Origin: Bacteroidota bacterium
GTDB lineage: Bacteria; Bacteroidota; Bacteroidia; Bacteroidales; JACABE01
Assembly (NCBI GenBank): GCA_026391675.1
Contig: JAPLDQ010000044.1
Span: 1-49,194 of the forward strand
Direction: 5' to 3'
DNA length: 49,194 nucleotides
Position numbers and translations under genes: made by a program
Shown here: positions 9,625 to 45,225 of the stretch, piece by piece
Position numbering within the stretch: position 1 is the first letter of the stretch
How the letters are laid out: each line of letters starts with the position of its first letter
Notes under the pieces: generated by a model
Told to the model about the DNA's origin: nothing
Databases searched by the model: none
Seen by the model: the letters and a program-made list of their open reading frames with translations, nothing else

Positions 9625-9634
9625 TATAACCCGC

Positions 9635-9672: not shown

Positions 9673-9709
9673 CTGCTGCAAATTTAAATAATATTTAAAT
9701 ACCAATTAA

Positions 9710-9741: not shown

Positions 9742-9746
9742 TTCTT

Positions 9747-10571: not shown

Positions 10572-10639
10572 TTGTGTTGTTAGATTTATTAAAATATTTG
10601 TATTTTTGCAGCCTACCACTTTAATTCTTGCATAAATAA

Positions 10640-10693: not shown

Positions 10694-10694
10694 A

Positions 10695-10725
10695 TTATAC
10701 CGGAGATTGGTAGTCTCCGGTATAA
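10695..10725. terminator. second hairpin in tandem
   Basis: A perfect 12-bp stem, TTATACCGGAGA with TCTCCGGTATAA, encloses a 7-base loop. It sits 1 base from the longer hairpin and 14 bases after the holin-like gene stop. The two may form a double terminator, a transcript-stabilising structure, or a regulatory barrier ahead of the methylase. Confidence 0.6.
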
Positions 10726-10739
10726 AGTAGGGGTATAAA

Positions 10740-10967: not shown

Positions 10968-11006
10968 TTTAATTTTGATTTGTTTGTTATTAATTATTAT
11001 TTGTAA

Positions 11007-11741
11007 TCAGAATAGACCTTTCGTATATTCATAATATTTTTTTACAAATTCAGCGTTCCAAGCTACATTGTCTATAATTACCTCATCAATATAACCGTTA
11101 AATTTATATGTGCCACCTCCTCCGTAATAGTCTCCAATTGTAATTCCTGAATTTCCACTTACACCGGTTCCTGAAGCTGTTCTTTCACCTATTTTCATCC
11201 CATTTAAATAGCCAGATAATGTTGTTGATATTGAATTGTAAGTCAGAATTAAATTATCAAAATTTGTAGTAGATATATTGTAAGTATAAGCGATCGATTG
11301 ATCTGCGACCCCTATTTTTACACGGTCAAAATAAATAGAAATTACGCCTGCCGTATTGTCAACACCAATTGTATAACCAACTTTCGATACATTAGAATTT
11401 AGATCTATCAGACCTCCGTATTTTCCACTTTGAATTAAATTAACTCTTTTAATCCAAAGTGATAAAGTACAACTTCCACCGTCAATCGCTAAATTATTAT
11501 TTGTTTTTGTAATATATCCGGTCGTCATACTAGCACCCTGTGCAAATTTACCGGTACTTATAGAATAAGTTATATTAACATCAGTACAATTATTATTATT
11601 CCCTGACGTATCCCTTGAGTTCCCGTTCAAATGTAACAGTAATTTAGTTGTTGCTGAGCCGGATCCTATTATTTGCCCAAATTGCGCAAATAATAAATTT
11701 CCTGATATTAGGAAAACGATAAGTATTATTAATTTTTTCAT
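11007..11741 (-). CDS. LamG/concanavalin-like fibre or receptor-binding protein
   Basis: This is a 244-residue protein with an N-terminal hydrophobic segment resembling a signal peptide (residues 1-19, ending LLFA). A laminin-G or concanavalin-like beta-sandwich follows: LLHLNGNSRDTSGNNN, SCTLSLWIKR, YLNGMKIGERTAS, FNGYIDEVIID. Such domains bind sugars. Its stop and the upstream gene are separated by a single base, so it is co-transcribed with the 828-residue fibre. An adhesin role at the fibre tip is likely. The signal-like start is unusual for a virion protein and is shared with the fibre upstream. Confidence 0.7.
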   Translation of the reverse strand: MKKLIILIVFLISGNLLFAQFGQIIGSGSATTKLLLHLNGNSRDTSGNNNNCTDVNITYSISTGKFAQGASMTTGYITKTNNNLAIDGGSCTLSLWIKRVNLIQSGKYGGLIDLNSNVSKVGYTIGVDNTAGVISIYFDRVKIGVADQSIAYTYNISTTNFDNLILTYNSISTTLSGYLNGMKIGERTASGTGVSGNSGITIGDYYGGGGTYKFNGYIDEVIIDNVAWNAEFVKKYYEYTKGLF

Positions 11742-11742
11742 A

Positions 11743-14229
11743 TTATTTTAAGTATAAAAGACGTGTAGGAAATAAAAACAATTGAACATATAAATCAACA
11801 GGAAATGTTGTAGTAGTTACTGCAATAATATTTAATTGCAATCTATCATTTAGCGCAAGAGATAGATTTGGGTTGGCCGTTTTAGTTGTAGTCGTAGTTG
11901 CAACGTTATACGCTAAAGAAGGAGAAACTATTGTAACAGTTCCTGTACCATTCACTAAGTTTACATTCGTAGTTCCTGAAGTCGAAGCAACAGTTCCCAC
12001 TTGCATATCACAACCAAGTATTCTCATCGGTTCATTTGCATAGTAAGCACGTGAGCAGTCTGTTGCTGTTGCACCTATTGTTCCGGCAATTGCATAATCT
12101 ATTTTTGTATAGCTTTGTTTGCAATAATAAACTGAATTAGCATCAAATCCGGCTGCAACTATAGTATCTCCAACTATTGTTACAGTTGTATATGTGCCAT
12201 CCCAACTAGCTGGCCTGTCAACCATGCCACAGCGCACAGTTGAACTTTCTTTCCATTTAACGATCAATCCCTTTGCAATGTAATACGAATAATCACCGGT
12301 ACATGTAAATGTTGTCTTGGTTGTTTTCGTTGGGCTTCCTTCTATAGGCGTCCAAAACTGATTAACTACATGAAGAACCGTTCCATTGCCATCTCCTGTT
12401 AATGTAGAATCTTTATTTACTGCAGCTATTTTTGTATTTATTAAACCGTTTAAAACTCCATGCCCTGCGGTGTCTCCGGTGTTTGTACCAGAAACTAAAT
12501 TTAATGCTGTTCTATTTGAATGATACAAACTTGTAGTATCAGGAAGTTGAGACACATAGGCTAATGGAGCATCTTGTATTGTGAGATTAATAAAATTCCA
12601 AATATTAAAAACTGAATCCCATCTGAATTTCATTATATACCTTTTATTATAACCAGTTATAGGTAATGAAAATCCGGAATATTCTTTATACATAGTACCC
12701 CATGTTATTGTATAAGAACCGGCTGTGAAAAATAAATTTATAACTATTTCATCTCCCTCGTTTTGACTTGTTCCTGAGTTTCTTATTTCGATGCCTTGAT
12801 TTTGTGCGGTTATTACATATTCATCATATTGTGATTTATCAGGGACAATTAAATTGGACATAATATTTTGGTAGATTCTTTTGGTTATTCTTTTATTTGA
12901 AAAAGTATTCGTAGATGACTCTGTGATCGAATTTGCCTTTTTTAAATAAGGTAATAACATATCTCCTGTATCAGTAGCGTTTAGTTTTAAACTGATTAAA
13001 CTATTAAGCAATCCATGTCCTACTGTATCTCCTGTATTCGCTCCCAATACTAAATCTAAAGCTGATCGATTTAAGTGATACAACCCTGATGTATCCACCT
13101 GCGTTATACCAGATACAACATTTGCTTTAATGGTATCGCATTTTATATTTCCATTAACTTCAAATCTTTCAGATGGTGCAACTACACCAATTCCAACTTT
13201 CCCAGATGATGTGGGTGTTATAGATGGATTTCCTGAAAACACAGAATAAAGTCCCGTTGCAAATAACACTCCACCTAAATTCATAGAATTGTTAGCTCCG
13301 TTTGGAAGTGATATATAACTACCTATTATTATGTTATTCGAACCTATTTTATTGCCCGAAAACCATTTGCCTGCTTTATATCCAAATATATTACAATAAG
13401 AAGCACTCGTATCATTCTCTCCTGCCGAATAACCAATGAAGTTAGAAGCCATTACTGATTTTGCACCGTACCCTGCTGAATAACCAATGAAGTTAGAACC
13501 ACCTGATGAACTTGCTCCATACCCTGCCTGATAACCTATAAAATTTGAATTACCAGAAGATGTTGCAACTCTTCCTGCATTTTTACCAAAGAAATTAGAA
13601 TTGCTTGAGTTTGTTGCCTGATACCCTGCGCCATTACCAAAGAAATTAGACTCATATGCACTTGTAGCTTCACGCCCTGAATTCGGTCCAAAGAAATTAG
13701 ATATATATGAACTTGTTGCCTGATACCCTGCCCCGACTCCTAAAAAATTAGCGTCATAAGCGCTAGAGGCCTGATATCCTGCCGAAACACCTATAAAATT
13801 AGAGTGATTTGAGTTTGTTGTTAGAAACCCTGCCTGATAACCTATAAAATTTGATTGTATTGCAGTAGAGTTGCTGCCGTAATTCCAACTAAAAATTGAA
13901 TTATCACTTCTTATAAATAACGCCGAACTATCAGTCAGCATTTTAGGAGTTACATATTCTGTTATACTATCTTTACTTCCCACTATTTTGACTTTATTCT
14001 CATTTAATAAAGTTCTTATACTCTCGTTTGCCTGAGCAATTCGCATGGTTGAATACAGGTTTTTATAACCTGCGATAGTTGTATCTGTCCAGCGAACTAA
14101 ACTATTAACAGGCATAATCATGTTAAACCGAGAAGTATCCTTCGGCATTTTTATGATACTTTGTGGAGATTGCGCATTTGCGCTTAATATCAGTAATAAT
14201 AATACTAATAGATTTGTGATTTTTTTCAT
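11743..14229 (-). CDS. long tail-fibre protein with AG-repeat segment
   Basis: This 828-residue protein begins with a signal-like stretch (MKKITNLLVLLLLILSANAQ). Residues about 130-275 are built of roughly 16-18-residue repeats with the pattern SNFxGxxAGxxAxSSx, such as SNFFGNGAGYQATNS and SNFIGYSAGYGAKS. Repeats of this kind are known from trimeric phage fibres and surface adhesins. Later sections repeat GLYHLNRSALDLVLGANTGDT-like units (about 390 and 570) and end in a beta-rich tip. No DGR variable repeat was seen here. The role as a side or tail fibre is inferred from repeat structure and position between baseplate genes and the lectin-like gene. Confidence 0.8.
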   Translation of the reverse strand: MKKITNLLVLLLLILSANAQSPQSIIKMPKDTSRFNMIMPVNSLVRWTDTTIAGYKNLYSTMRIAQANESIRTLLNENKVKIVGSKDSITEYVTPKMLTDSSALFIRSDNSIFSWNYGSNSTAIQSNFIGYQAGFLTTNSNHSNFIGVSAGYQASSAYDANFLGVGAGYQATSSYISNFFGPNSGREATSAYESNFFGNGAGYQATNSSNSNFFGKNAGRVATSSGNSNFIGYQAGYGASSSGGSNFIGYSAGYGAKSVMASNFIGYSAGENDTSASYCNIFGYKAGKWFSGNKIGSNNIIIGSYISLPNGANNSMNLGGVLFATGLYSVFSGNPSITPTSSGKVGIGVVAPSERFEVNGNIKCDTIKANVVSGITQVDTSGLYHLNRSALDLVLGANTGDTVGHGLLNSLISLKLNATDTGDMLLPYLKKANSITESSTNTFSNKRITKRIYQNIMSNLIVPDKSQYDEYVITAQNQGIEIRNSGTSQNEGDEIVINLFFTAGSYTITWGTMYKEYSGFSLPITGYNKRYIMKFRWDSVFNIWNFINLTIQDAPLAYVSQLPDTTSLYHSNRTALNLVSGTNTGDTAGHGVLNGLINTKIAAVNKDSTLTGDGNGTVLHVVNQFWTPIEGSPTKTTKTTFTCTGDYSYYIAKGLIVKWKESSTVRCGMVDRPASWDGTYTTVTIVGDTIVAAGFDANSVYYCKQSYTKIDYAIAGTIGATATDCSRAYYANEPMRILGCDMQVGTVASTSGTTNVNLVNGTGTVTIVSPSLAYNVATTTTTKTANPNLSLALNDRLQLNIIAVTTTTFPVDLYVQLFLFPTRLLYLK

Positions 14230-14233
14230 GTTT

Positions 14234-14527
14234 TTATTTTATATTTATGAATTTGATTTTTTGCCATACATATTCCTGGGCTGCATCAAATGTCACTATA
14301 TTATTTACTAAGTTGCAGTATGCCGAAACATCTACCCCGGCGATTGTAGCCTGATAAAAATCTTCTGTAATATCAAAATCAGCAATTACAAATTCTGTTT
14401 GACCTTCCTCAATAGTAAAAATCTGCGATCTCTTTCTATCAATAAAATCAATCAACTGATAAAACTGATCCTGAGTAGGACGTTTACCTGTTTCAAAAAA
14501 AGTTTTCAATACATCTGAAGCTGCCAT
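14234..14527 (-). CDS. small fibre-associated phage protein, unknown function
   Basis: This is a 97-residue soluble protein (MAASDVLKTFFETGKRPTQDQFYQLIDF...). The opening pattern, with FETGKRPTQDQFYQLIDFID, is like short proteins or domains often seen at the start of fibre modules in phages of this phylum. It lies 4 bases upstream of the long fibre gene in the same operon, so a small attachment or fibre-connecting role is possible. I cannot assign a family. Confidence 0.65.
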   Translation of the reverse strand: MAASDVLKTFFETGKRPTQDQFYQLIDFIDRKRSQIFTIEEGQTEFVIADFDITEDFYQATIAGVDVSAYCNLVNNIVTFDAAQEYVWQKIKFINIK

Positions 14528-14535
14528 TTTATTAA

Positions 14536-15348
14536 TTATAATTTATAACTCATACCGTCTAAATAAACAATTGCCGGCAATCCTACTGACCACACAGTAC
14601 CATCGTTCAATATTTGTAAGTTTGGTAAATATCTGGTCTTACTGGGTCTGTATTTAGCAGGCAAAGTGAATAAATGATTTGTATTCGATGCCCCTTTATC
14701 AATCGCTCCTCTAAAATGCACCATGCCAAAAACATCTTTTTTATACCCTGCATTTTCGTTAGGAGCACCATGCTGTGTCCAGTCATTTAAAAACACTGCT
14801 ACATCAACCCAATCTTCTTCTGATACTCTCAACTTGTCAAATAAATCGGCTGTATCAATAGCTGCTAAAATTTCAGTACTACTTAATAATTTTAAAATCT
14901 TAGTTTGTATATATTCGGCATTGTGTGGCATATAGATGTAATTACCAAGCAAATCTTGTACAACCGCTCCGAAAGCTAATTTAGCAGTTCTAATTTGATA
15001 AGTATCATGAGAACTTGCATCATAAAACAATTTATTGCCTGCGATATCATAATTAATATCGACTATCCATTCAAGAAATTCGCCGGCTGGCCACACTGCA
15101 GGAGTTACAACAGAACCTGCCGGTACGAATAAGATTTCACCTCCGAGGCACAGATATCCTTCAGTCCAGTTGTAAGTAGTTCCTACAATAGTTACTACAC
15201 ATCCGCTAATTTTAAATGAATCTGTAGCTGCTATTCCAAATGCAGAAACTAAGCCTTTAAATGCATCACGAACTGCAGTATCTAAGAATCTGAAATCGTC
15301 CAATACAATCGGTAATTTACCGTTATCTGTTGTTATAAGTTTATTCAT
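14536..15348 (-). CDS. tail/baseplate-associated fibre protein
   Basis: This is a 270-residue protein directly after the gp48-like gene, with which it shares its boundary base. It starts MNKLITTDNGKLPIVLDDFRF, then has a central region with many short beta segments (YLCLGGEILFVPAG) and a C-terminal region HFRGAIDKGASNTNHLFTLP followed by RYLPNL. That region resembles fibre-tip or baseplate-wedge connector domains. Position between baseplate and fibre genes supports a role in joining fibres to the baseplate. The assignment rests mostly on context. Confidence 0.6.
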   Translation of the reverse strand: MNKLITTDNGKLPIVLDDFRFLDTAVRDAFKGLVSAFGIAATDSFKISGCVVTIVGTTYNWTEGYLCLGGEILFVPAGSVVTPAVWPAGEFLEWIVDINYDIAGNKLFYDASSHDTYQIRTAKLAFGAVVQDLLGNYIYMPHNAEYIQTKILKLLSSTEILAAIDTADLFDKLRVSEEDWVDVAVFLNDWTQHGAPNENAGYKKDVFGMVHFRGAIDKGASNTNHLFTLPAKYRPSKTRYLPNLQILNDGTVWSVGLPAIVYLDGMSYKL

Positions 15349-15833
15349 TATATACTTTGTATTAAAAATTGTTTTCCGGCTATTCTGTATTGATTAATTA
15401 AGGCTCTCATTCTGTCTAAACCGGCAGCACCTAAATTATTATAAAGTGCCAAAGGAATTTTAACAATAAAATGATATTGAACTACGAGCTCAGCAGCATT
15501 TGATAAATAAACAGCATCAGCATTTTCGGCTAAATTTGATAAATAAAGAGGATATCCTTCAGCTTTGGTTGAAATATATGTATATTCCACATCCGCCACA
15601 TCCTCAATAAAAATTGTATTAACAGCATATTTATCATTCAAAAGTTTCTCAAGATAAATCACCTGGCCTGTATAGTCTAATCGTTTATTAGCATCAATTC
15701 TGAAATTCTGAAAATCGGCATATAATACCTTTATGGGTGTAATAAAACACTTCAACATAGCAAAAAACCTGTCTTTGTTGAGACAGCTTGCTATGTTTTG
15801 CCTTATCAATATGTCTAAATCAACATTAAACAT
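15348..15833 (-). CDS. gp48-like baseplate/tail protein
   Basis: This 161-residue protein overlaps the baseplate J gene by 8 bases. In Mu, gp48 follows gp47 (baseplate J) in the same way. The first half (LIRQNIASCLNKDRFFAMLK, YTGQVIYLEKLLNDKY) is typical of small proteins encoded after baseplate J in phages of this phylum. Similarity to the Mu protein itself is not evident by eye, so the name is by position. Confidence 0.6.
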   Translation of the reverse strand: MFNVDLDILIRQNIASCLNKDRFFAMLKCFITPIKVLYADFQNFRIDANKRLDYTGQVIYLEKLLNDKYAVNTIFIEDVADVEYTYISTKAEGYPLYLSNLAENADAVYLSNAAELVVQYHFIVKIPLALYNNLGAAGLDRMRALINQYRIAGKQFLIQSI

Positions 15834-16638
15834 TTGCAGAAGAATTAAGGGTAAGTGTATCCAATTGATAGTAGCCGGCTATTGATTCATAATTCTGATC
15901 AGTAATAGTTGACCATACTGCAGCTGCAGCTTCTTTTACTTTAAAATCTGCAATATACACATCAACTACACCAGGAACATTTTGGATGGCATCAATCAGT
16001 TTAGTTCTGTTAATCACGCCACCGTAAACGATTGCTTTCAAATAGTTTTCAAGTGCTATTTTAACCACTTCAATACCATCGCTTATGTTTGCTCCGGCAG
16101 CAGTTAATACAAGAGGGTCAAATACTAAATTAAGCGTAAACTTAGCTGAGCAGGCATTGTACGAAATGATATTCATATTAGTACCGGCAAACTTCACCTG
16201 TGACATATATGATTTAAATGATATCAGTTCCTGATTAGTCAGAGCAACAGGAACACCGGCAGCTTCCTTACAAACTTTAATTCTTAATTGACCTGCAACT
16301 TCTCTTATGGCTACACGCTTTACTATCATTTTCCCGGCATCAGGAACTTGGTAAATAAACTTACCATTTACCCAGGATAATTGATCACCATATTGAAATA
16401 ATAAACACATAGCATGATACCATCTTAAGGTACCAGGAATAAGATTTTCAATTTTTGTGTTGATCTCAGTTTTATGGTTATCGAATATTACTTCGAGTGT
16501 CCATATAGCTAAAGCGACAATATATGCCCATAAATTAAATAAAGCTGTTGCTGAAGGTGATACATACACTGCAAGTGAAGCTTCATTATTCTTAGCTGTT
16601 ATAATAATATTTTTTATTTCAATAACCGATCGTGCCAT
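15826..16638 (-). CDS. baseplate J-like protein (Mu gp47 role)
   Basis: This is a 270-residue baseplate wedge protein. Typical points are the N-terminal region with FNLWAYIVALAIWTLEVIFD, ALTNQELISFKSYMSQVKFAG, and a late segment NRTKLIDAIQNVPGVVDVYI, which matches the conserved end of baseplate J proteins. It is expected to form the wedge that links the tail hub with the fibres. It lies between the LysM protein and the gp48-like gene, as expected for a contractile tail cluster. Confidence 0.8.
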   Translation of the reverse strand: MARSVIEIKNIIITAKNNEASLAVYVSPSATALFNLWAYIVALAIWTLEVIFDNHKTEINTKIENLIPGTLRWYHAMCLLFQYGDQLSWVNGKFIYQVPDAGKMIVKRVAIREVAGQLRIKVCKEAAGVPVALTNQELISFKSYMSQVKFAGTNMNIISYNACSAKFTLNLVFDPLVLTAAGANISDGIEVVKIALENYLKAIVYGGVINRTKLIDAIQNVPGVVDVYIADFKVKEAAAAVWSTITDQNYESIAGYYQLDTLTLNSSANV

Positions 16639-16647
16639 ATCTTTTTT

Positions 16648-17145
16648 TTAACTTACAATAAAATCTATACCTATAGCCCAGTAGCCTATGCCTGAATTAA
16701 CCTCCTGAGTTTCTTTTATTCTTGATGCAACTATTGCATTTTTGTTTTTTAAGTCGTTTACCACATTAGCATTAATAATTTTGTTTCTGTCAATTATTAA
16801 TTGAGTTCCCTCATTTATTGAATCAGTAATAGAATTAATTCCATTATCTTTAGCAAGCTGAGCAACACCTTCTGTTGAACCATATTCCTGAAGCGATAAA
16901 TCGAATAAATTTTGGCCGGAACTAACAGTTACATATTTTAAATTACTTTCTTTTAAAATTTCATTTTCAAACGTTTTAGACTTATAATTTTCATTAATTA
17001 TTAATTCAGTACCGGGTATTAAATCATCAGTAATATTGTCAATATTATTCTCTTCAGCAAGACGAAAAACACTATCAACAGTTCCGTATTGCTGAAGTGC
17101 TATATCAAATAATGATTGTCCGTTTAATACTATTATTTTACTCAT
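16648..17145 (-). CDS. tail protein with two LysM domains
   Basis: With the start MSKIIVLNG this protein has about 165 residues. An upstream ATG at 17157 would add four residues, but the chosen one overlaps the previous gene by only 8 bases. Two LysM repeats are clear: GQSLFDIALQQYGTVDSVF with PGTELII, and GQNLFDLSLQEYGSTEGVA with EGTQLII. LysM domains bind peptidoglycan or help hub assembly. In contractile phages, tail protein X-type LysM proteins sit at the tail tip and join tube, hub and cell wall. Confidence 0.8.
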   Translation of the reverse strand: MSKIIVLNGQSLFDIALQQYGTVDSVFRLAEENNIDNITDDLIPGTELIINENYKSKTFENEILKESNLKYVTVSSGQNLFDLSLQEYGSTEGVAQLAKDNGINSITDSINEGTQLIIDRNKIINANVVNDLKNKNAIVASRIKETQEVNSGIGYWAIGIDFIVS

Positions 17146-17425
17146 AATTAGCGTCAACTTGCAGTTGTTGATTTATATAATTTACTGAAGTAACATGCAT
17201 GCCATCCTTTTCAAACTGATCATTAATCTCATTCAGCATATCATTCGTATCATCATCATTTAAATAATTCTCAATCCCTATACCACATTTTGGATTTTCT
17301 TTCCATTCTCCTTTTTGAGTTATTAGTAGTAGTTTCTGATGTTGCAATGTGCTTTCACCAATTACAAAATCACCGTCTACACAGGCTAAATCTCCGCTAT
17401 CGTCTAATAATATATCTTGTGGCAT
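17138..17425 (-). CDS. gp25-like baseplate wedge protein
   Basis: This is a 95-residue protein. The patterns ILLDDSGDLACVDGDFVIGES and GEWKENPKCGIGIENYL are typical of the small gp25/gp46-like wedge proteins of contractile tails, which contain a conserved glutamate-rich core. It overlaps the spike gene by a single base and precedes the LysM protein, matching the usual order spike, wedge, baseplate J. Confidence 0.75.
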   Translation of the reverse strand: MPQDILLDDSGDLACVDGDFVIGESTLQHQKLLLITQKGEWKENPKCGIGIENYLNDDDTNDMLNEINDQFEKDGMHVTSVNYINQQLQVDANYE

Positions 17426-22490: not shown

Positions 22491-23681
22491 TTATGCTGTT
22501 TTAAATGGATTAACTAAACCTAATGTAATATCAATTTTCTTAGAATATCCTTTAGGAACTATGTTGATTGACACAGCAACTTTGTCTGCGCTTAAAAAGT
22601 TCTGTTTAGGATTTATGTAGCATTCAGGACTACCTGAAATTTCTCCGGTCATGTTTTGCTGAAGTGCATTTTCAACATTGGATTTCCAACTTGCAATTAT
22701 GCCGGCAGAAATATAACCATTGTCCTGATCAACTTCAATATCGTCATTTAACTCTTCAATAAGAGTTGTATATGCAATGCATAAAGCTTTATCTATAACA
22801 CGGCCACGGGCAAAGGAACAATAATCATTAGCATTGGCAGTACAGGTAGGATCATCAGTAAAAAAGAATCCTGCTTTACCATAATAGTTCCTGATAAATA
22901 AATATCCTTTATCATGTATGGCATTCCAACTGGCTTCAACTGCATTCACAGCAACACCATCAGGAAAACAAGCAGCACTAATTCCTATGTTACCATCTTT
23001 AACTCTGGCCGGATTTCTTTGAACCGGTATAGCTGCATATCGGCCTAATAATAAACCGCACAAAACTACACCTGCAGCTGAAGAACCTAATGCAACCTGA
23101 ACACCTTTATTGACCATTGTTTTTAAATCCAATGCGCCAATTGTAGTAGTTCTGAAACCCTGACCGCAAATTATCGCCCTGAATGGTTTATATGCAGCTG
23201 CATAAACTAATCTTAAGGCTTCAAGTTTAGTAATAGCAGCAAAACAATCATCATCTACACCACCTAATCCGGTTGCATATAATGAGACATAACCAACTGG
23301 AGCTTTACGATTAATACTTAAAATCCTGATACGACCTGCAGCAGCATCCAGTAATTTTTTTGCTGATATGCCTACGGTATCTTTGTCACATAATGCAGTT
23401 AGTAATGTAGCATCACTAACAACCATAAGCCATAATTCAGCACCTTCTCCAGCCATATCATAAAATGCTTTAACATCACTATAAGCAATAGCATTATTAG
23501 CAGCTATAAATCCTAGATCAAGAAAAGCTTGAAATGAAAATAATCGTACAGCTTCTCCTAATGTGAGATAACCGGTCGTTACGACTCCGGAAACCACCAT
23601 GCCGGCAACAGCATCAGCTGTTTCATTTACACGACCTAAGCCGTTTTTAATTGTAATATCTATTCCTGGTAATCCACTCAT
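22491..23681 (-). CDS. contractile tail sheath protein
   Basis: This is a 396-residue sheath subunit. It starts MSGLPGIDITIKNGLG, then has the region GVVTTGYLTLGEAVRLFSF and a long middle domain. The C-terminal domain contains YCSFARGRVIDKALCIAYTTLIEELND and IASWKSNVENALQQNM, a typical pattern for the sheath C-terminal handshake region. The length and gene order (sheath, tube, chaperone, tape measure) show that the virion is a myovirus-type particle, as Mu is. Confidence 0.88.
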   Translation of the reverse strand: MSGLPGIDITIKNGLGRVNETADAVAGMVVSGVVTTGYLTLGEAVRLFSFQAFLDLGFIAANNAIAYSDVKAFYDMAGEGAELWLMVVSDATLLTALCDKDTVGISAKKLLDAAAGRIRILSINRKAPVGYVSLYATGLGGVDDDCFAAITKLEALRLVYAAAYKPFRAIICGQGFRTTTIGALDLKTMVNKGVQVALGSSAAGVVLCGLLLGRYAAIPVQRNPARVKDGNIGISAACFPDGVAVNAVEASWNAIHDKGYLFIRNYYGKAGFFFTDDPTCTANANDYCSFARGRVIDKALCIAYTTLIEELNDDIEVDQDNGYISAGIIASWKSNVENALQQNMTGEISGSPECYINPKQNFLSADKVAVSINIVPKGYSKKIDITLGLVNPFKTA

Positions 23682-36927: not shown

Positions 36928-37233
36928 TTAACTAAATTTAAGTCTGTCACTAATTTCCACTATTACCGTTTTAAAAGGGAATCCCTCTTCAGGGACTTTC
37001 TGAATGGCTTCTATTAATTCAATCCCTGATGTAAATACCACCCTCTTTTCTCCATTTATTGAAATTTGCAGATGGAGGCATTTATCGTTACCTTTTCCTT
37101 TATATATCTTAGAATCTTCAATTTTATAATGATGCACAATAATTTCATTATCCAATAACTTTGCCATTTTTATTTTATTCCCTTCAAACCCTTTGGATAC
37201 AATCTTTATGTTAAAATCGCTAAATTGTTTCAT
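36928..37233 (-). CDS. conserved small protein overlapping the DGR reverse transcriptase
   Basis: This 101-residue beta-rich protein overlaps the RT gene end by 14 bases, so the two are translated together. Key features are FNIKIVSKGFEGNKIKMAKLL, YKIEDSKIYKGKGNDKC, LHLQISINGEKRVVFTSG and a C-terminal TVIVEISDRLKF. It could be a small OB-type or similar nucleic-acid-binding fold. I recall similar small proteins in mobile elements of this phylum, but cannot name the family. Because no Avd-like gene is seen, it is the best candidate for a DGR accessory factor. Confidence 0.65.
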   Translation of the reverse strand: MKQFSDFNIKIVSKGFEGNKIKMAKLLDNEIIVHHYKIEDSKIYKGKGNDKCLHLQISINGEKRVVFTSGIELIEAIQKVPEEGFPFKTVIVEISDRLKFS

Positions 37234-38209
37234 GTAATAGTTTTTTTAATAAGTTCTTTGAATTGCAGTGCAATGCCCATCCATTATAGGACGCAATGCT
37301 TTGCTTATTTTTATTCTTTACTAACATTCTAGCAAAGTTCTTTTTAATGCTTTTTCTCAGACGTGTATGCGTATGCCTGAATACATATCCAACAAAATCA
37401 ATTCCACGAGCATCAACAGGGAATATCTGATAATTATGTTTGATTTCAAGCTTTAATTTGTCATTTAAATAAGTCCTGATATCTGATAACAGTTGATGTA
37501 AATAAGCCTTATTTGAGGCTAAAATCACGATATCATCCGCATATCTGAAGTAGTATCTTACTTGTTTTTCCTCCTTAATCCAGTGGTCGAAATATGTAAG
37601 GTAAAAGTTAGCGAGGTATTGGCTGAGATAGTTTCCGATTGGAAGACCGGATGTAGATTCGATGACTTCATCAAGTAACCAGATCAAGTCTTTATCTTTT
37701 ATTTTTCTTAATAATAATTGCTTTAATACATCATGATCGATGTTTGGATAAAACTTCCTGATGTCAAGTTTTAAGCAATATTCAGTATTTTCAATGTCTT
37801 TTAAAGCATATTTAACAGCATCAGCAGCTTTATGAATACCACGTTTTTTAATACAGCTATATGTATTCGCAATAAATGTACTTACAAAAATAGGTTCTAA
37901 TACATTCATTACTGCATGATGAGTAATGCGATCAGGGAAGTATGGCAAGCGGAATATTAAGCGTTCCTTTGGCTCATGTATTGTAAATGTAGTGTATTCA
38001 GATGTTTTATATGTTTTATTGATCAACATTTCGTGCAATTTAATTATATTTTCATGCCTATTTTTATCGTGTTCAATAACACCTGCTTGTTTTGCTTTGC
38101 CTTTCCTGGCAATTGTATCTGCAAGTTCTAAATTGTCAATGCTACAGATTTGATGATATAAATTATTAATTCTTTTCATGCCTTTGCTTTTAAAAGATCG
38201 TTTTCGCAT
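37220..38209 (-). CDS. reverse transcriptase of a diversity-generating retroelement
   Basis: This is a 329-residue reverse transcriptase; a second possible start, MKRINNLYHQI, is at 38179. Catalytic motifs are visible in order: RLPYFPDRITHHAV (motif 2 region), CLKLDIRKFYPNIDHDVL (first Asp), GLPIGNYLSQYLANFYL and YFRYADDIVILASN (YADD). The motif IGNYLSQ, with SQ rather than the SP of group II intron enzymes, is the hallmark of DGR enzymes. No maturase or endonuclease domain follows, and the C-terminal thumb ends SYNGWALHCNSKNLLKKLL. It would copy TR RNA into adenine-mutated cDNA that replaces VR sequences in the two genes upstream. Confidence 0.95.
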   Translation of the reverse strand: MRKRSFKSKGMKRINNLYHQICSIDNLELADTIARKGKAKQAGVIEHDKNRHENIIKLHEMLINKTYKTSEYTTFTIHEPKERLIFRLPYFPDRITHHAVMNVLEPIFVSTFIANTYSCIKKRGIHKAADAVKYALKDIENTEYCLKLDIRKFYPNIDHDVLKQLLLRKIKDKDLIWLLDEVIESTSGLPIGNYLSQYLANFYLTYFDHWIKEEKQVRYYFRYADDIVILASNKAYLHQLLSDIRTYLNDKLKLEIKHNYQIFPVDARGIDFVGYVFRHTHTRLRKSIKKNFARMLVKNKNKQSIASYNGWALHCNSKNLLKKLLHETI

Positions 38210-38279
38210 TTGCTACCAACGATCTGATAAGATTAATTTATTTTTTGCCCTGATGGCACGGTTTATGCTGCATAAGAAA

Positions 38280-38359
38280 CATAGGTGAGAGCTGCAATTC
38301 GAGTTCGTATTATCGTAGTTGTAATTCGAATTCTGGAACCGGAAACCGGAAGCTAGAAC
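38280..38359 (-). repeat. DGR template repeat (TR)
   Basis: This 80-bp non-coding sequence lies between the reverse transcriptase start and the first target gene. It aligns without gaps to VR1 at 38476-38555 and to VR2 at 38894-38968. Read in the frame of the targets it would encode SGFRFQNSNYNYDNTNSNC, so seven residues in this part are Asn codons (AAC/AAT) whose first two bases are adenines. This is the typical design of a DGR template. The mutable adenines are T in the plus-strand listing. All mismatches to both VRs lie at those positions. Confidence 0.95.
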
Positions 38360-38390
38360 TAACAGCACTAACAGCATACAACCTTAATTT

Positions 38391-38807
38391 TTATTTTTCC
38401 GGATACAGGAACATTTCTTTGTATTCTTCCTCAAAAGTTTCAGTTATATAAACGATCCTTTCGCTGGAAAAAGTGCAAAGGCGAGAGCCGCAATACGAGA
38501 GCGTAATATCGTAGCCGTAATACGAATACAGGAACCGGAAACCGGAAGCCAGAACAGAATACCAGGCATAATACTTATATTCATCAAAATCGCCCCAATC
38601 CGGAACCCATCCGTTATTTATTGCCTCAAAAATTATTATCAGTTTATAGTAGGCAATTAAAGTACTACTATACTTTTTAATCAAAAGTATTCTTATTAAG
38701 AATATTATACATACCCTTAAAAAATAGCTCTTACCTGTTTTTTTACAAGCATCTTTAAAATCCTTAATTGTTCTGAAATCAAATTCAGTGTTGTTGTTGT
38801 TTTTCAT
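38391..38807 (-). CDS. DGR target protein 1 (variable protein)
   Basis: This is a 138-residue protein. The N-terminal part contains FRTIKDFKDACKKTGK, then a hydrophobic stretch (about 27-46), then LIAYYKLIIIFEAINNGWVP, DWGDFDEYKYYAW and the variable region at residues 85-111 (SGFRFLYSYYGYDITLSYC), followed by GSRLCTF and a helical tail. The order resembles small hypothetical proteins I recall from genomes of this phylum, with NxGWxPDW...EYKYY...GSRLC. Asn codons of the TR read Y, Y, G, I, L and Y here. A binding protein of the C-type-lectin kind is likely from the DGR context. The gene is in the early operon, so it is not a tail fibre. The hydrophobic stretch may be a membrane anchor or result from two compensating indels. 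Confidence 0.85.
   Translation of the reverse strand: MKNNNNTEFDFRTIKDFKDACKKTGKSYFLRVCIIFLIRILLIKKYSSTLIAYYKLIIIFEAINNGWVPDWGDFDEYKYYAWYSVLASGFRFLYSYYGYDITLSYCGSRLCTFSSERIVYITETFEEEYKEMFLYPEK
38476..38555 (-). repeat. DGR variable repeat VR1 in target gene 1
   Basis: This 80-bp segment is identical to TR at all 59 non-T positions of the plus-strand listing and differs at 13 of 21 T positions, which are adenines on the coding strand. Its 3' coding end, with GCGGCTCTCGCCTTTGC, is shared with VR2 and differs from TR, as expected for the initiation site of mutagenic homing. Confidence 0.95.
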
Positions 38808-38820
38808 TTCTTATTTATTT

Positions 38821-39273
38821 TTAGTGATAAAATCTTTCGTATAATTTTGTATGTGTTTTGCCCATAAAATCAGACCTTGTCTGATCTATTATGCAAAGGC
38901 GAGAGCCGCAACACGAGCGCGTACCATCGTAGATGTAAGCCGAAGCCCGGAACCGGAAACCGGAAGCCCTGTTAAATATTGGTGTCCATTTTTTCTGATT
39001 TGAATCCTCCCAATTAGGGAAAGCAGGAGCATCATTTACAACTATAATGATGTGTTTAAGCATTTTATAAGCTACCACATCATCACTATCAGTTTCATAA
39101 ATAATATCATCTCTATGAACCGGTTGTTCCTCACAGGCAATTTCATAGCTTATAATTTCATCCCAGCGTCTTTTTTTAAAAGCGTCAGGGAATAGTTCTT
39201 CCAATATTTCCTTGCCGGCAGCACATTTTTTAGCAGCCTTAAGTACTTTTTCTTTTTCAATTTTTAATTCCAT
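38821..39273 (-). CDS. DGR target protein 2 (variable protein)
   Basis: This is a 150-residue protein, 13 bases upstream of target 1. The N-terminal half is helical and charged (MELKIEKEKVLKAAKKCAAG, EILEELFPDAFKKRRWDEII). The middle has SYEIACEEQPVHRDDIIYE, and the variable region at residues 102-127 reads SGFRFRASAYIYDGTRSCC followed by GSRLCIIDQ. Outside the VR-containing half it is not similar to target 1, so the two share only the diversified ligand-binding module. No signal peptide or membrane anchor is seen. Role and ligand are unknown. Confidence 0.85.
   Translation of the reverse strand: MELKIEKEKVLKAAKKCAAGKEILEELFPDAFKKRRWDEIISYEIACEEQPVHRDDIIYETDSDDVVAYKMLKHIIIVVNDAPAFPNWEDSNQKKWTPIFNRASGFRFRASAYIYDGTRSCCGSRLCIIDQTRSDFMGKTHTKLYERFYH
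38894..38968 (-). repeat. DGR variable repeat VR2 in target gene 2
   Basis: This segment aligns to TR 38280-38354 without gaps. Differences occur only at T of the listing (coding-strand adenines), at 16 of 21. Changes include double substitutions in AAT/AAC codons, for example to GCT, ATC and GGC codons. The left part, next to TGCAAAGGCGAGAGCCGC, is identical in VR1. Confidence 0.95.
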
Positions 39274-39278: not shown

Positions 39279-39638
39279 TTATTTAACTAGAGTTAATTCC
39301 CGTTTACCTTCTTTCATATCTCCAATTTCAAATCGTAAAATCTTGATTTCTTTCTTCAGCTGTAATAAGAAGAATGATTTTACTTTATGCGCAGCGGCCA
39401 TCAAAAGATTGTGCCTTCCGGATGGTTTACCAACTTTAAAACCACCTTTAGGAACATCAGTATAAAATATCTTACCATCTTCAAAAATTATCGAGAATGT
39501 TGCTTCAGGTTTTAAAGCAAGCAATTTCTCAGCTGCTTTATTAAATAGGAATCCATGTAAACCAACTGTTACCTGAGCAGGCATATCCTTTTGCAGGAAA
39601 TCAGTTAGTACGTCAGGTGTTAATGTAATGTTTGTCAT
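39279..39638 (-). CDS. early protein of unknown function next to DGR targets
   Basis: This is a 119-residue protein, 5 bases upstream of target 2. It reads MTNITLTPDVLTDFLQKDMP, EKLLALKPEATFSIIFED, GGFKVGKPSGRHNLLMAAAH, ending in a basic part with KKEIKILRFEIG. It has a mixed alpha/beta pattern and no known motif. It probably belongs to the early transcription unit rather than to the DGR itself, though its tight spacing to target 2 leaves this open. Confidence 0.55.
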   Translation of the reverse strand: MTNITLTPDVLTDFLQKDMPAQVTVGLHGFLFNKAAEKLLALKPEATFSIIFEDGKIFYTDVPKGGFKVGKPSGRHNLLMAAAHKVKSFFLLQLKKEIKILRFEIGDMKEGKRELTLVK

Positions 39639-39655: not shown

Positions 39656-40270
39656 TTATATACTCGAAAAATTAAGATTAACAAGCTTGTATGAACCATC
39701 AGTTTCACGGAAATAAACATTAAAATATTTGGTTGATGATGGCCTTCTGATTGCAGCTTCTAATAGGTTTAACGCTTCCTGAAAATCAGGATTATCAATT
39801 TTGGTTCTATATTTTGTTAAACTCATTACCTTTTTAGCATCGAGTTTTCCTTTAGTTGTTGAAAATGCATCCTGGACTAAATCCTTTACAAAAAGTTGAT
39901 CACTTGTAAGATTATTATCTAAAAAGTTATTCAACTTTTCTTTACTCATTTGAATTGTTATATCATCAAAGGTGATATAATCATTCATTGATACTACTAT
40001 TTTAACTGATCTGTCAAAATTATACCATGTATAATTACCTTTACTGGTTGGTTGTCTGCCGTTAAAACTTTTGGCGGTAGCTGCTATTACATTATTGCTA
40101 ATTTCGTCAACCATTTTTTTAAAAGCAACCATTTTTATATTTATAAATGCAGCTTCTTTTAATAATTTGGCAGCTCCAGCTTCAGCAAGCTTATTAGCTT
40201 TACTAACATGAATTGCAGGAACATTGTGTCCCTGTTCGTCAACCCATAATTTTTGTTTTGTTTGATTCAT
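39656..40270 (-). CDS. DUF3164-family Mu-like early protein
   Basis: This is a 204-residue protein. Features of the DUF3164 family are KLWVDEQGHNVPAIHVSKAN near the start, a long helix, YTWYNFDRSVKIVVSMNDY, ITFDDITIQMSKEKLNNFLD, then KLDAKKVMSLTKYRTKIDN and STKYFNVYFRETDGSYKLV. Proteins of this family occur in the early regions of Mu-like phages. Their function is not known. The context between GemA-like and DGR genes supports a role in replication or transposition. Confidence 0.85.
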   Translation of the reverse strand: MNQTKQKLWVDEQGHNVPAIHVSKANKLAEAGAAKLLKEAAFINIKMVAFKKMVDEISNNVIAATAKSFNGRQPTSKGNYTWYNFDRSVKIVVSMNDYITFDDITIQMSKEKLNNFLDNNLTSDQLFVKDLVQDAFSTTKGKLDAKKVMSLTKYRTKIDNPDFQEALNLLEAAIRRPSSTKYFNVYFRETDGSYKLVNLNFSSI

Positions 40271-41632: not shown

Positions 41633-42256
41633 TTAAATTTGTTTATTCCAGTATTTATCTGCGCCTTCTTTCCAAATTATAAAAGGTTCCTGATCTCCTC
41701 CAAACCGAGATGCTTCGATAAATGCTTTATATTTTTCTATAAATATCTTAACATCACTGTCAAACCTTATTCTTTTTGCAAGACTTCCTGAAGGTAATTT
41801 TCCATCAACTTGACTTATAATTATAAAAGTTTTGTTTCTAAAAGTATCTTTCAATAATATATAATCTTTGTATTTCATCTGGCTATACTGTGACGAGTCT
41901 ATTACAACTATTTCAGCACTTTTTCTTTTATGTAATCTTATTATAAGATCAGGAATTGGTTCCTTGTCTAATAGTAAAAATCTACTTCCACATTCATCAA
42001 GTCCTGCACGTTTGCACGACAGCTGCATTGTTAATGAAAAACCCTCTTCAAAACTATCATATAATACCTTCCCGAAATTTGTCATATATTTACATAATTG
42101 AAGTACAAAGCTTGTTTTGCCATTACCTGAATCACCGCTAACAAACCATATCCCCCCACGACCCGGTTTACCGAAACTTTTTTCCCAACTACCTTTGAAA
42201 TCATAAGTTTTAAAATTTTTAGTAAATAATGAGTTTGTCGAGTAAGCTCTTGCCAT
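41633..42256 (-). CDS. RecA-like ATPase of the early region
   Basis: This 207-residue protein has a Walker A motif, GIWFVSGDSGNGKTSFVLQL, near residue 40 and a Walker B-like strand, AEIVVIDSSQYSQM, near 115. A strand TFIIISQVDGKLPSGS also fits RecA/DnaB-like folds. It follows MuB in the operon. Its role could be in replication or recombination, for example as a helicase-loader or repair partner. It is separate from MuB, whose fold and N-terminus differ. Confidence 0.75.
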   Translation of the reverse strand: MARAYSTNSLFTKNFKTYDFKGSWEKSFGKPGRGGIWFVSGDSGNGKTSFVLQLCKYMTNFGKVLYDSFEEGFSLTMQLSCKRAGLDECGSRFLLLDKEPIPDLIIRLHKRKSAEIVVIDSSQYSQMKYKDYILLKDTFRNKTFIIISQVDGKLPSGSLAKRIRFDSDVKIFIEKYKAFIEASRFGGDQEPFIIWKEGADKYWNKQI

Positions 42257-42311: not shown

Positions 42312-43178
42312 TTAATTCTTGTTTAATTCGTTATAAATACGTCTCAGGCTTAATTCAGAACCTTTAATAATAACATTTGTATCAGTTCCTGCAGGTGCAT
42401 TTACCTTGGCCACCATCGATGCCTGAACCATTAAAAATTGTTTCATTTCATCTGTTCCTGCAGGAGAAACCTTCTGATATCTGCTGCCATATCTTGAGAA
42501 TAATTCAGTGTAACCAACCTTCTTACAGTCGATAGCTCTTACAATTTTCTGTTTTAATCCATCAGCACCCATCATATACCATCCGCATGCACGTTCACTA
42601 GCATTCCATAAAGCTTTTAACTCTAAAAATGCAGAATAGTCCAAGTCTCCGGCTTCGTCAAGTATAATCAATGGGTTGGGGATGCTACGCAGATAAAACA
42701 CCAAATCTGCGTAAACATCAGCATATTTGCCTGTATGCCCCACCCCAAATTCTTTAGCTATAAATCTTATCAGTTTTTGCTTAGTCTTTACCTGACTGCA
42801 ATCTGTATAAATGGCGTTTTTATTAGATTTTACATACTCTTTAGCACAATAGGTTTTGCCGATATCAGCGATATCGCACAATAAACTACTCATTGAATTG
42901 TCCTGGCATAATTTCAACTGACCGGTTATAAAATTATATGCCGGTGTATTGGCTGTTTTCCATACTGCTGCAGTTCCTAATTGGATATCCATTAAACGGG
43001 CTAAACTTATCCAGTTCTGATCACTCAGCACTCTTTCAGTTTCACCGTTTTTAATTCGGCTATACTGAGCATTATTAATTCCCAGGCTAACTGCAAATTT
43101 TGAATCACTGCCGGCAAAGTTTTCACGTCTTTCGGCTAAGACTTTTACGATCTGTTTTTTAATTTCTGTTGTAATCAT
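42312..43178 (-). CDS. MuB-like target-choosing ATPase
   Basis: This is a 288-residue AAA+ ATPase, the partner of the MuA transposase. A helix-turn-helix, SKFAVSLGINNAQYSRIKNG, is at residues about 25-45. The nucleotide-binding motif appears as CDIADIGKTYCAKEY, less canonical than GxxGxGKT. Walker B is NPLIILDEAGDLDYSAF, and the sensor part includes MMGADGLKQKIVRAID. MuB binds target DNA, activates the transposase and gives target immunity. The gene is 34 bases after MuA, as in Mu. Confidence 0.88.
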   Translation of the reverse strand: MITTEIKKQIVKVLAERRENFAGSDSKFAVSLGINNAQYSRIKNGETERVLSDQNWISLARLMDIQLGTAAVWKTANTPAYNFITGQLKLCQDNSMSSLLCDIADIGKTYCAKEYVKSNKNAIYTDCSQVKTKQKLIRFIAKEFGVGHTGKYADVYADLVFYLRSIPNPLIILDEAGDLDYSAFLELKALWNASERACGWYMMGADGLKQKIVRAIDCKKVGYTELFSRYGSRYQKVSPAGTDEMKQFLMVQASMVAKVNAPAGTDTNVIIKGSELSLRRIYNELNKN

Positions 43179-43212: not shown

Positions 43213-45225
43213 TTAAAGGCTATTTATAGCATATTCACCGCCATAGCTAGCTGCATAAGCTTCCATATCCTCAATTGTTTCTTCATGCATGCTAAGCGGA
43301 GTCGAAGCAACAACTTCTGCTGCTGAAGCTGCAATCTCGGCCATCTGAATATGTTCGTTTTGAATGATCTCAATTTTATCAACCTTATTTTCCTTTATAA
43401 GCTTATCAAACTTATTAGTAAATTTAGCTTGGTCAATTCTTACTTCTTCATCATGTGCGGTACGTTCGGACATAGCTTCCTGATATCTTTCCAGCATTTG
43501 GCATTTACATAAAAAACTACCATTTTGGTATAAATATACTTCAGGTATGCTTCCATCATCAATAGGCAAATAGTAAGCATCTACATCATAGTTGTTGGTT
43601 TGTAAACGATCTACTATCTTTGAGTCAGGTAATATATACATATTATACTGCACCCTGCAGTATTGATTATTTCTGATACTGGTTTCTGTTTTTTCGCCTA
43701 TACATTTATAAATAAGTGCTTTATTAACTTGAGGTAGATCAGGATTAAGATTGTACATCAAAACCTGCCAACGGGTCATACCTGGATACTTCTTTTGTTT
43801 GCTGTGTAGTTTATTATTATGCTCAAAATTACTTTTCTGATCATCAGCAACCAATGTACTGTAAGCATAGAATTTTTCTTTAAATTCATTGTTTATTTTA
43901 TCGCTGGTAACACGGTTAGCTTCAAGTTTTAAATAAAACCTGCCTATTCCGGATTGAAGTTTCTTTTCAGTACCGTATTTCTTTTGCTTAATCTCATGTT
44001 CAGCACGTTTTTCACGACTATTCCCTTTATTACAAATTCTCATAAATGGGAACATCTCGCTTAGGATATCAAAATAATTACTTACAAGATGATTTTCAAC
44101 TTCAACTTGCATTGGCATTCCAAATCCGTTCCGATCTATCAGTCTGAACATATCTCTTAAGCAGGCAATGAATAAATCATCATCTTTGCTCATTGAATAT
44201 GCAGCACCTATGATACATTCACTTGCAACATCAAATGCGTAGTATGCTTTTACACGTTTGCCTGATAATTCTTTGCGAGGTAGGTCTCTGTCATCCATTG
44301 ATATTTTACTGAAAGAGAAATTAGGAGAGTTCCTGTGATTATGTGGCCGGTGTGTATTGTTATATTCAAATGTACCCATACGAACCTTGTCAACTAATGC
44401 ACGATTCAAAGGATTGTTAAGATAAGCCCATACTGTTGATTCACTTATTGAAATTGGACTGCCATCCTTCATAAAATCTTCACGATTGAATAATTCTCCG
44501 GATTCGCAATCAACAACTTCAATTTTACCACTCATATACGCTTCAAATTGTTCATGAACTGTAGTTGTATAAGGTTTTTCAGGCTGTGAATACAGGCTTA
44601 AAATCAATCTTTCAAGTTTTACCGATACTTTCCGGGCATTATCATTACCAAATTTTGGGTCAATTAGCGAAGCATAACCGGATTTAATATACTCCAGATA
44701 AGTAAGTTTTAATCGTTTTTCGCTTCCGGGCAATGTGTGAGGCATCTCTTTTGATAGTGTTTTAACAGCTTTTACAAGCATTTCCCACAATTTTGCTTTA
44801 GGTTCACCCAGTTGATTGCGCTGTTTTATACGTTCCTGGACAGTATTTTTAATTTCATTTAAAATCGAAGCACTATTACAGTATAATTGAATTTTATCGA
44901 CGTAACGTTTATTAGTATTAAAAGGATGATCAGTAAAATACGTCAACGCTTTAGCATCAGGAACCAATCTTTCAATAAATGGCTTAGTGGCTGCCACTTC
45001 TTTAACATCACCATATTTCTCATAAATAATACGCTTATATTTTGATGGTAAACTATCCAGTTCTATTAATGCAGACTTTCCATAGCACGAACGACGTATG
45101 ATATTGGCATTGCCTCTATTTCTTAAATTCTTATAAGTTGATTGAGGGATAATGCCTTCTATATTAGTTTCAGTTCTTATTAATTCTGCTCCGGAGATGC
45201 ATAATCTGTTATTATAGTATTCCAT
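43213..45225 (-). CDS. MuA-like DDE transposase
   Basis: This 670-residue transposase cuts the phage ends and joins them to the target. N-terminal DNA-binding parts (PQSTYKNLRNRGNANIIRRS, SLPSKYKRIIYEKYGD) precede the RNase H-like core with D332 in YYAFDVASECIIG, E377 in QVEVENHLVSNYF where a D is usual, and E405 or E409 in NSREKRAEHEIKQKKYGTEK. A C-terminal beta-barrel region and helical tail (about 580-670) would contact MuB. The length is close to the 663 residues of MuA. The Glu in the second catalytic position should be checked against relatives. Confidence 0.9.
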   Translation of the reverse strand: MEYYNNRLCISGAELIRTETNIEGIIPQSTYKNLRNRGNANIIRRSCYGKSALIELDSLPSKYKRIIYEKYGDVKEVAATKPFIERLVPDAKALTYFTDHPFNTNKRYVDKIQLYCNSASILNEIKNTVQERIKQRNQLGEPKAKLWEMLVKAVKTLSKEMPHTLPGSEKRLKLTYLEYIKSGYASLIDPKFGNDNARKVSVKLERLILSLYSQPEKPYTTTVHEQFEAYMSGKIEVVDCESGELFNREDFMKDGSPISISESTVWAYLNNPLNRALVDKVRMGTFEYNNTHRPHNHRNSPNFSFSKISMDDRDLPRKELSGKRVKAYYAFDVASECIIGAAYSMSKDDDLFIACLRDMFRLIDRNGFGMPMQVEVENHLVSNYFDILSEMFPFMRICNKGNSREKRAEHEIKQKKYGTEKKLQSGIGRFYLKLEANRVTSDKINNEFKEKFYAYSTLVADDQKSNFEHNNKLHSKQKKYPGMTRWQVLMYNLNPDLPQVNKALIYKCIGEKTETSIRNNQYCRVQYNMYILPDSKIVDRLQTNNYDVDAYYLPIDDGSIPEVYLYQNGSFLCKCQMLERYQEAMSERTAHDEEVRIDQAKFTNKFDKLIKENKVDKIEIIQNEHIQMAEIAASAAEVVASTPLSMHEETIEDMEAYAASYGGEYAINSL

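Follow-up and report, generated by a model that had tools for sequence, protein, structure and literature searches.

A diversity-generating retroelement in the early operon of a Mu-like Bacteroidota prophage, with two paralogous small proteins as its only detected targets

Diversity-generating retroelements (DGRs) are mostly read as tools of surface recognition, with the C-type lectin as the fold that bears the mutations (PMC8144416). Here we analyse a DGR of a Mu-like prophage found in a stretch of 49,194 nucleotides (nt) from a Bacteroidota bacterium (contig JAPLDQ010000044.1, positions 1 to 49,194), referred to at its whole length as the window. A compact minus-strand cassette, at positions 36928 to 39273, contains the gene of a reverse transcriptase (RT), a single template repeat (TR) and the genes of two small target proteins, T1 and T2, each with a variable repeat (VR).

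In their survey, Roux et al. tied VR regions to C-type lectin folds and found viral targets to be mostly tail proteins (PMC8144416); targets of the type of T1 and T2, both of which belong to family phrog_11581, may be among their 24 clusters. Three described phages share features with the window. First, BPP-1 (NC_005357) has the same adenine mutagenesis between TR and VR, together with an RT, but its target is the tail protein Mtd and an Avd gene is annotated, whereas searches of the window cassette against Pfam, PHROGs, PADLOC and NCBIfam, libraries whose content of Avd models was not checked, returned nothing of the Avd type. Avd is present in just two DGR phages of another study (PMC5883640). 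Second, Hankyphage is also a Mu-like Bacteroidota phage that carries a DGR, but it diversifies one large C-type lectin protein, with the VR at residues 2188-2225, later named a tail fibre (PMC6199706, PMC12135933), in contrast with the two early-operon proteins of 138 and 150 amino acids (aa) of the window. Third, the Bacuni phages of Bacteroides uniformis combine one TR with two targets, one of them distant; their targets, however, are described as combining a C-type lectin fold with DUF1566/Fib_succ motifs and are presumed to bind the host, and an Avd gene is present (PMC8143477).

Non-structural targets have also been described. In Quimbyvirus, a second, non-structural DGR target lies amid methyltransferases, a nuclease and a tRNA ligase, a neighbourhood that the authors read as counter-defence; the phage targets known before were, in their words, structural (Benler et al., 2021; PMC8008677). 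A 2025 collection adds four gut prophages, of four species, with a second VR distal to the RT and near counter-defence genes; these prophages have tail targets as well, unlike the window, and the passages considered here do not link their targets to phrog_11581 (PMC12629997). In Quimbyvirus and LoVEphage, as in the window, a single DGR diversifies a non-structural protein, and the remote target of LoVEphage is a homologue of the small targets, served by the same TR as the tail gene. However, the TR of these phages also feeds a tail protein, and they have just one non-structural target, at a great distance from the RT, whereas no tail target was found in the window and two paralogues lie immediately upstream of the TR. 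Since the papers on LoVEphage and Quimbyvirus both align their phage to Bacteroides dorei CP011531.1 (PMC8525569, PMC8008677), the published second target of Quimbyvirus is probably a LoVEphage-type phrog_11581 protein, an identification made through this shared record. Lastly, the crAss-like phages cr115_1, cr55_1, LMMB, cr60_1 and cr56_1 encode RTs about 50-60% identical to that of the window, and cr60_1 and cr56_1 hold a remote homologue of the small targets, but their RT-adjacent target is an annotated tail protein.

A preliminary description of this DNA had proposed that the targets lie outside the tail region. As to position this was borne out, but non-structural DGR targets of Bacteroides phages are already in print, namely, in Quimbyvirus (2021; PMC8008677) and in the four gut prophages (2025; PMC12629997). 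What is new is a lineage with solely early small targets where tested, the keeping of two early paralogues, and a shared protein family, phrog_11581. Our searches of open-licence papers listed none that, by title or abstract start, deals with a DGR lineage having early targets only, and none that contains phrog_11581 or joins Elizabethkingia and DGRs. We read the locus as a DGR for which the only targets detected are two small, paralogous and apparently non-structural proteins of the early operon, whose variable hairpin would bind a host factor; this reading as a whole we place midway between doubt and acceptance. Its part that T1 and T2 are non-structural early products is likely.

In order of transcription the cassette comprises T2 (150 aa), T1 (138 aa), a 181-nt gap that holds the TR, the RT (329 aa) and an open reading frame (ORF) of 101 aa. 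Its features, with the ORF that precedes it, are as follows.

39279-39638, minus strand: ORF of 119 aa immediately upstream of T2 in the operon (ORF call)
38821-39273, minus strand: target T2, 150 aa, paralogue of T1 (phrog_11581, E 3e-7); begins 5 nt past the upstream gene
38894-38966, minus strand: VR2, within T2; 15 of 15 mismatches at TR adenines
38391-38807, minus strand: target T1, 138 aa (phrog_11581, E 6e-17); helical model with the VR as a low-confidence loop
38476-38548, minus strand: VR1, within T1; 12 of 12 mismatches at TR adenines
38280-38352, minus strand: TR core of 73 nt with 20 adenines, inside the 181-nt gap between T1 and RT (repeat comparison)
37220-38209, minus strand: DGR reverse transcriptase, 329 aa, with IGNYLSQ and YADD motifs (phrog_1423, reverse transcriptase, E 8e-130)
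36928-37233, minus strand: accessory ORF of 101 aa (phrog_19665), with a beta-rich model; overlaps the 3' end of the RT gene by 14 nt

Over the 73-nt core, VR1 differs from the TR at 12 positions and VR2 at 15, and all 27 differences fall on the 20 adenines of the TR, with none at its 53 other positions in either repeat; the probability of adenine-only mismatches by chance is 7e-9 for VR1 and 1e-11 for VR2. When a 67-nt TR pattern, with adenines as N and up to three mismatches, was searched in the 4.04-Mb genome, exactly three places were matched, all in the cassette, and none by the reversed control; the same scan revealed no tail target of this TR in the genome. A fourth place, matched by a 19-mer with two mismatches (C25:20892), was set aside as chance, its flanks not extending the TR and the 67-nt pattern being absent there. 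Among 222 VR/TR pairs, an exact-motif search found 106 in which the TR codes for SSHL where the end of the VR reads GSRL, the rest stopping earlier or reading otherwise; judged from sequence, such a difference is as expected for a pair of initiation of mutagenic homing sites (IMH and IMH*). These facts fit mutagenic retrohoming of the BPP-1 type; the divergence of the VRs is adenine-only, both from the TR and, as described below, between near-identical relatives.

RTs of the DGR type follow the motif rule [IVL]GxxxSQ and YxDD, which the window enzyme does with IGNYLSQ and YADD. In the PDB it comes closest to 8ub7 (E 8e-41; next match, 5e-19), which is the BPP-1 RT, matching it across all 328 residues (E 4.5e-230). 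By this match the enzyme does not fall outside the DGRs, a point on which the phylogenetic tree described below, built from DGR RTs only, has no bearing. As a candidate defence RT the enzyme was rejected because the TR/VR system accounts for it; the best of the many RT profiles listed by PADLOC was a generic RT model, and its NCBIfam matches were under the cut-offs. The window gave no match in Rfam. Thus, both the DGR-type RT and its arrangement with one TR and two VR-bearing genes, as first described, stand, with 27 of 27 mismatches at TR adenines and three genome copies of the repeat, and that the element is a DGR is virtually certain.

The prophage is Mu-like, with MuA, MuB, portal and terminase genes all present, and PHROGs also recognised a CI-like repressor in the window. 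The following genes locate the cassette within it.

43213-45225, minus strand: MuA-like transposase (phrog_310)
42312-43178, minus strand: MuB-like DNA transposition protein (phrog_296)
41633-42256, minus strand: ATPase-like early protein (weak RadA/Sms match, under cut-off)
39656-40270, minus strand: DUF3164 early protein (Pfam)
22491-23681, minus strand: tail sheath, as position reference (phrog_907); 13.5 kb from the RT

From MuA down to position 35242, the gaps between consecutive minus-strand ORFs range from -35 to +55 nt, save for the 181-nt TR spacer, which makes the cassette look like a segment of the early operon. The placement in a Mu-like early region, with MuA and MuB upstream and the sheath 13.5 kb off, agrees with the preliminary description, and the early position is well supported; solely from this gene order, we infer early or lysogenic expression. 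T1 and T2 might instead serve the lysogen in superinfection exclusion or immunity, by binding variable parts of incoming phages or plasmids. The cassette is indeed prophage-borne, and DGR-diversified sensors have reportedly been proposed in bacterial conflict systems; however, the genes sit in the transposase operon, which, by analogy with Mu, the CI-like repressor would be expected to keep silent during lysogeny, and homologues occur in crAss-like phages too, so that we regard a lysogenic function as quite improbable.

Relatives were collected by RT search, namely, the best 80 of 278 relatives in the viral_contigs set and 64 in the genome_contigs set, 144 in all, including duplicates (e.g. 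loci L011/L012, L056/L098 and L077/L100). Cultured relatives are among them, namely, Pedobacter arcticus A12 (L098) and Flavobacterium sp. AED (L100). By their titles, 8 of the 64 genome relatives are from Ignavibacteria, Clostridia, Clostridium, Pumilibacter or Desulfatirhabdium, and the others from Bacteroidota. A strict scan, with zero mismatch outside TR adenines over at least 50 nt, recovered a TR/VR pair in 76 of the 80 viral and 57 of the 64 genome loci, and at least two VRs in 59 of the 80 viral loci. The VRs lie in small targets of the window kind in 115 of the 144 relatives (116 with the window) and in another target in 18; 11 gave no pair, and in 10 of these the RT is within about 330 nt of a contig end. 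The accessory ORF follows the RT on its 3' side in most relatives whose contig extends there; its model is beta-rich (predicted local distance difference test, pLDDT, 88), and a fold search of the protein returned weak matches, none with E < 0.1.

The TR pattern scan was extended to seven more records or genomes (five with one TR, two with another), and each gave exactly three places, the TR and two VRs, with no match in controls. No tail target was thus found in any of the eight records or genomes scanned, the window included, four of which are virus records and possibly fragments. The number and spacing of targets vary in some loci. Three VR-bearing small targets, not two, lie by the RT in L105, L107, L127, L130, L147 and L152; in L121 (Dyadobacter, 5044-17185), four VRs that belong to one TR extend across 12 kb, all in small targets, two of them remote from the RT. 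In L179 (12746-13561), two VR-bearing targets occur upstream of MuA, and some 7 kb separate them from the TR and from a third target beside it. In L178 (6459-6898 and 14892-14950), a distance of about 8 kb separates the TR and RT from two of its small targets (59 nt; 17 and 16 of 20 adenines changed).

Evidence for activity comes from relatives only, by comparison of 12 of the 66 related pairs, which overlap (L073, L075, L078). An excess of differences at VR positions facing TR adenines (Fisher p < 1e-3) was found in nine of ten small-target pairs and in both other-target pairs (L132/L133 and L136/L153). Two near-identical pairs differ at such positions only: L073/L075 at 11 of 40, with 0 of 2549 outside, and L058/L099 at 21 of 40, with 0 of 2539 outside. 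Two Elizabethkingia species differ at 23 of 38 of these positions, 0 of 116 other VR positions and 0 of 77 TR positions, whereas 266 of the 2502 positions outside are changed; four divergent pairs also vary slightly in the TR and at non-adenine VR positions (at most 6 of 77 and 6 of 57, in L055/L064). The adenine-specific variation that had been anticipated between strains is thereby found across relatives.

The position of the cassette was compared in the 115 small-target loci by phmmer with window and locus proteins. Always upstream and on the same strand were MuA (18 loci), MuB (30), the ATPase (33) and DUF3164 (16), and always downstream and on the opposite strand were portal (26) and MuF (21), so that the same early-region cassette, with MuA or MuB upstream wherever these were seen, recurs in related prophages. 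By module, 39 loci are Mu-like, 10 terminase-flanked and 16 replication-flanked. Nine tail-region genes of the window and one sister tail target had no homologue in any flank, a search with no positive control and with many short flanks. The tail sheath phrog_907 was found in 13 of 23 records or genomes, at 11-15 kb from the cassette in six virus records, and was unmatched in seven other virus records.

Some non-Mu relatives have primase, DnaB, RecT-like, terminase, RecE-like or replication-initiation genes within about 6 kb, and chosen non-Mu neighbours were assigned by PHROGs or Pfam to terminase subunits, portal, replication initiation, RecE-like exonuclease, RecT-like, DnaB and primase; one scan of ten such proteins included two with no match, one of a family of unknown function and one FtsK-like. 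With MuB, the ATPase and DUF3164 as neighbours in the window, and primase, DnaB, RecT-like, NinB, replisome organiser and DnaC homologues nearby elsewhere, T1 and T2 could be adaptors of phage replication, transposition or recombination, whose hairpin fits differing host replication partners. However, replication partners are generally conserved and so offer a poor reason for hypermutation, and the homologue in BI-TP1 lies among methyltransferase and other genes; such an adaptor role seems to us correspondingly hard to credit.

Turning to the targets themselves, Pfam gave nothing for T1 and, for T2, no more than a match at chance level under the cut-off (E 0.098), neither matches NCBIfam, and phrog_11581 is a family of unknown function. 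An AlphaFold2 (AF2) model of T1, from an alignment of 98 sequences, has five helices with a mean pLDDT of 81. Searched with Foldseek, it had no match below E 5 in the PDB and matched three viral proteins below 1e-3, all uncharacterised. With the VR removed, sequences from 56 loci required 10 changes between T1 and T2 labels, against 37.7 when shuffled, in a quick tree with many unresolved forks; by this sequence criterion the two behave as two old paralogues. Within T1 of the window, an inverted repeat (38688-38704, TATTCTT-ATT-AAGAATA) coincides with a hydrophobic stretch that deviates by eye from the family consensus, the frame being open, and T1 may be altered there. In L175 (6836-7573) and L232 (5995-6762), the target-family domain is fused to a second, C-terminal part, similar in both.

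Five of the 18 RT relatives with another target were scanned, and all five targets match phrog_5302 tail protein, three of them also phrog_11581, at the VR only. When the small-target profile was compared with 17 of the other targets by hhalign, the hairpin was similar (P 1e-8), but not residues 1-80 (P 0.02) nor the C-terminus (P 0.77). The similarity is confined to the hairpin, so that two scaffolds appear to share one variable hairpin. In a quick tree of RTs with 89 dereplicated rows, from which loci with no TR/VR pair or with an RT shorter than 280 aa were excluded, target type changes three times, against 16.5 when shuffled, with weak inner support. As for the C-type lectin fold, the helical model of the scaffold, the lack of a PDB fold match and the hairpin-only likeness to tail targets lean towards the targets not being C-type lectins, as far as a predicted scaffold allows, but confidence at the VR is low and Benler et al. 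assign such domains to both Quimbyvirus targets. Selection for tyrosine at the VR was considered and dropped: its enrichment is 2.4-fold with uniform bases and only 1.3-fold with observed base frequencies, and no binding claim is drawn; with observed frequencies, leucine stands at 1.8-fold, valine at 0.47 and proline at 0.1.

Homologues also occur away from any RT. The target of one relative, used as tblastn query, matched 11 phage records, whereas T1 of the window matched none in these records; plasmids gave no match to the relative's target at E 1e-3. Seven of the 11 records were checked for VRs, three other LoVEphage records and cr109_1 being left out, with up to three non-adenine mismatches allowed in remote matches and with reversed-TR controls, which gave nothing, in three records. 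In all seven, the RT-adjacent TR matches both the neighbouring gene, annotated as tail or tail collar fibre protein in six and as hypothetical in BT-TP2, and a remote place. First, the remote VRs span 115 nt in Versailles (15 of 23 adenines changed, about 43 kb from the TR) and 117 nt in BI-TP1 (16 of 27), PV4-TP1 (19 of 27; homologue matching phrog_11581 at E 3e-47) and LoVEphage (20 of 27), and in these four phages one TR serves a tail protein and a remote phrog_11581 protein. Second, in BT-TP2 the remote match (125 nt, 16 of 35 adenines) is at 121-245 of the record, and its homologue begins at the opposite record end. Third, the remote matches of cr60_1 (67 nt, 17 of 23) and cr56_1 (73 nt, 21 of 27) are plausible but weaker.

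In Versailles the remote copy is close to genes for NinB, for a protein of recombinational repair and for a replisome organiser. The copies of PV4-TP1, BI-TP1 and LoVEphage have methyltransferases and a Holliday junction resolvase nearby, and that of cr60_1 is surrounded by hypothetical proteins. Searches with target queries gave 73 loci, of which 22 lack an RT within their stretch, some being cut by contig ends; ten of these have a metal-dependent hydrolase homologue, and four of the ten NinB as well. In L228/L229 and L230/L231, near-identical homologues in replication regions with no nearby RT differ, at the protein level only, in their hairpins, as if a remote DGR had diversified them.

These data bear on the possibility that T1 and T2 are virion proteins, namely, small decoration, internal or adsorption proteins, so that the DGR would serve host binding as usual. 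Such a role would agree with the prevalence of annotated tail proteins among viral DGR targets (PMC8144416), with the likeness of the VR hairpin to that of tail targets, with the annotation of the Versailles homologue as 'tail protein' in its own record, and with the C-type lectin domains that Benler et al. gave to the Quimbyvirus targets (PMC8008677). However, the likeness ends with the hairpin, the surroundings of the genes, wherever these could be told, are early or replication regions, with the sheath well away in the six virus records mentioned, and ten of the 22 RT-less loci have a hydrolase homologue, four of them with NinB as well; a virion role is thus unlikely.

In the reading that we prefer, with T1 and T2 as early non-structural targets, TR RNA would be copied with errors at adenines and the cDNA would then replace the VR, as for BPP-1. 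T1 and T2 would be made early after infection, or in the lysogen, and would remain cytoplasmic, where the variable hairpin would bind a factor that varies from host to host; this would most likely be part of a defence system or some other host protein that the phage has to neutralise. The phage population would thus carry many binder variants, as tail DGRs supply many receptor binders. Counter-defence is supported because the same family sits by recombination genes in Versailles and by methyltransferase genes in PV4-TP1, BI-TP1 and LoVEphage; the function of the targets is probably intracellular and in counter-defence, and, granted a DGR with a non-structural early product, we see the case for counter-defence or host-takeover binding as roughly balanced. 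It is tempting to go further and to speculate that this lineage has left both the tail and the C-type lectin fold behind, and that its transplantable hairpin, also set on a small helical scaffold maintained as two paralogues, provides through reverse transcription an antibody-like library of intracellular anti-defence inhibitors, but this we consider doubtful. If our preferred reading is true of this widespread lineage, phages would hypermutate something needed after entry, perhaps on another scaffold; two short proteins and one hairpin make the search for a partner tractable, and the link to remote targets of Bacteroides phages such as LoVEphage widens the usefulness of the answer.

Several points weigh against this reading. 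First, none of the sequence or fold matches of the targets points to a function, and no known defence or counter-defence gene adjoins the cassette among the ten surrounding ORFs searched with Pfam and PHROGs. Second, residues 87-111 of the T1 model, the VR, average about 43-61 pLDDT by block, and because of this low confidence the model does not give the shape of the VR; also, the C-type lectin domains assigned by Benler et al. to both Quimbyvirus targets (PMC8008677) speak against a helical scaffold, if the Quimbyvirus target is a phrog_11581 protein. Third, for 50 of the 115 relatives no phage module could be assigned. Fourth, the close pair L069/L070 has no VR difference at all, eight more pairs are 100% identical, VRs included, and are possibly records of the same DNA, and in L182, where an RT and targets are present, the strict scan detected no TR/VR pair. 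Fifth, the family is not common in the window's class, with target homologues in 9 of 295 genomes (E 1e-5) and phrog_11581 matches in 7 of 395 (1e-6), the own genome being counted in both.

Of eight regions around such targets, three have an RT and VRs, one an RT with no pair, and four no RT, one of the latter at a contig end. An RT match at 1e-30 was obtained in 8 of 59 relatives, namely, the own genome, one at 78% identity and the rest at 31-42%.

Elsewhere in the window, two long tandem proteins, alike by eye, are encoded at 146-2038 and 2520-4424, beyond the prophage genes, and an ORF at 9747-10655, at the tail end of the prophage, resembles by eye a DNA adenine methylase.

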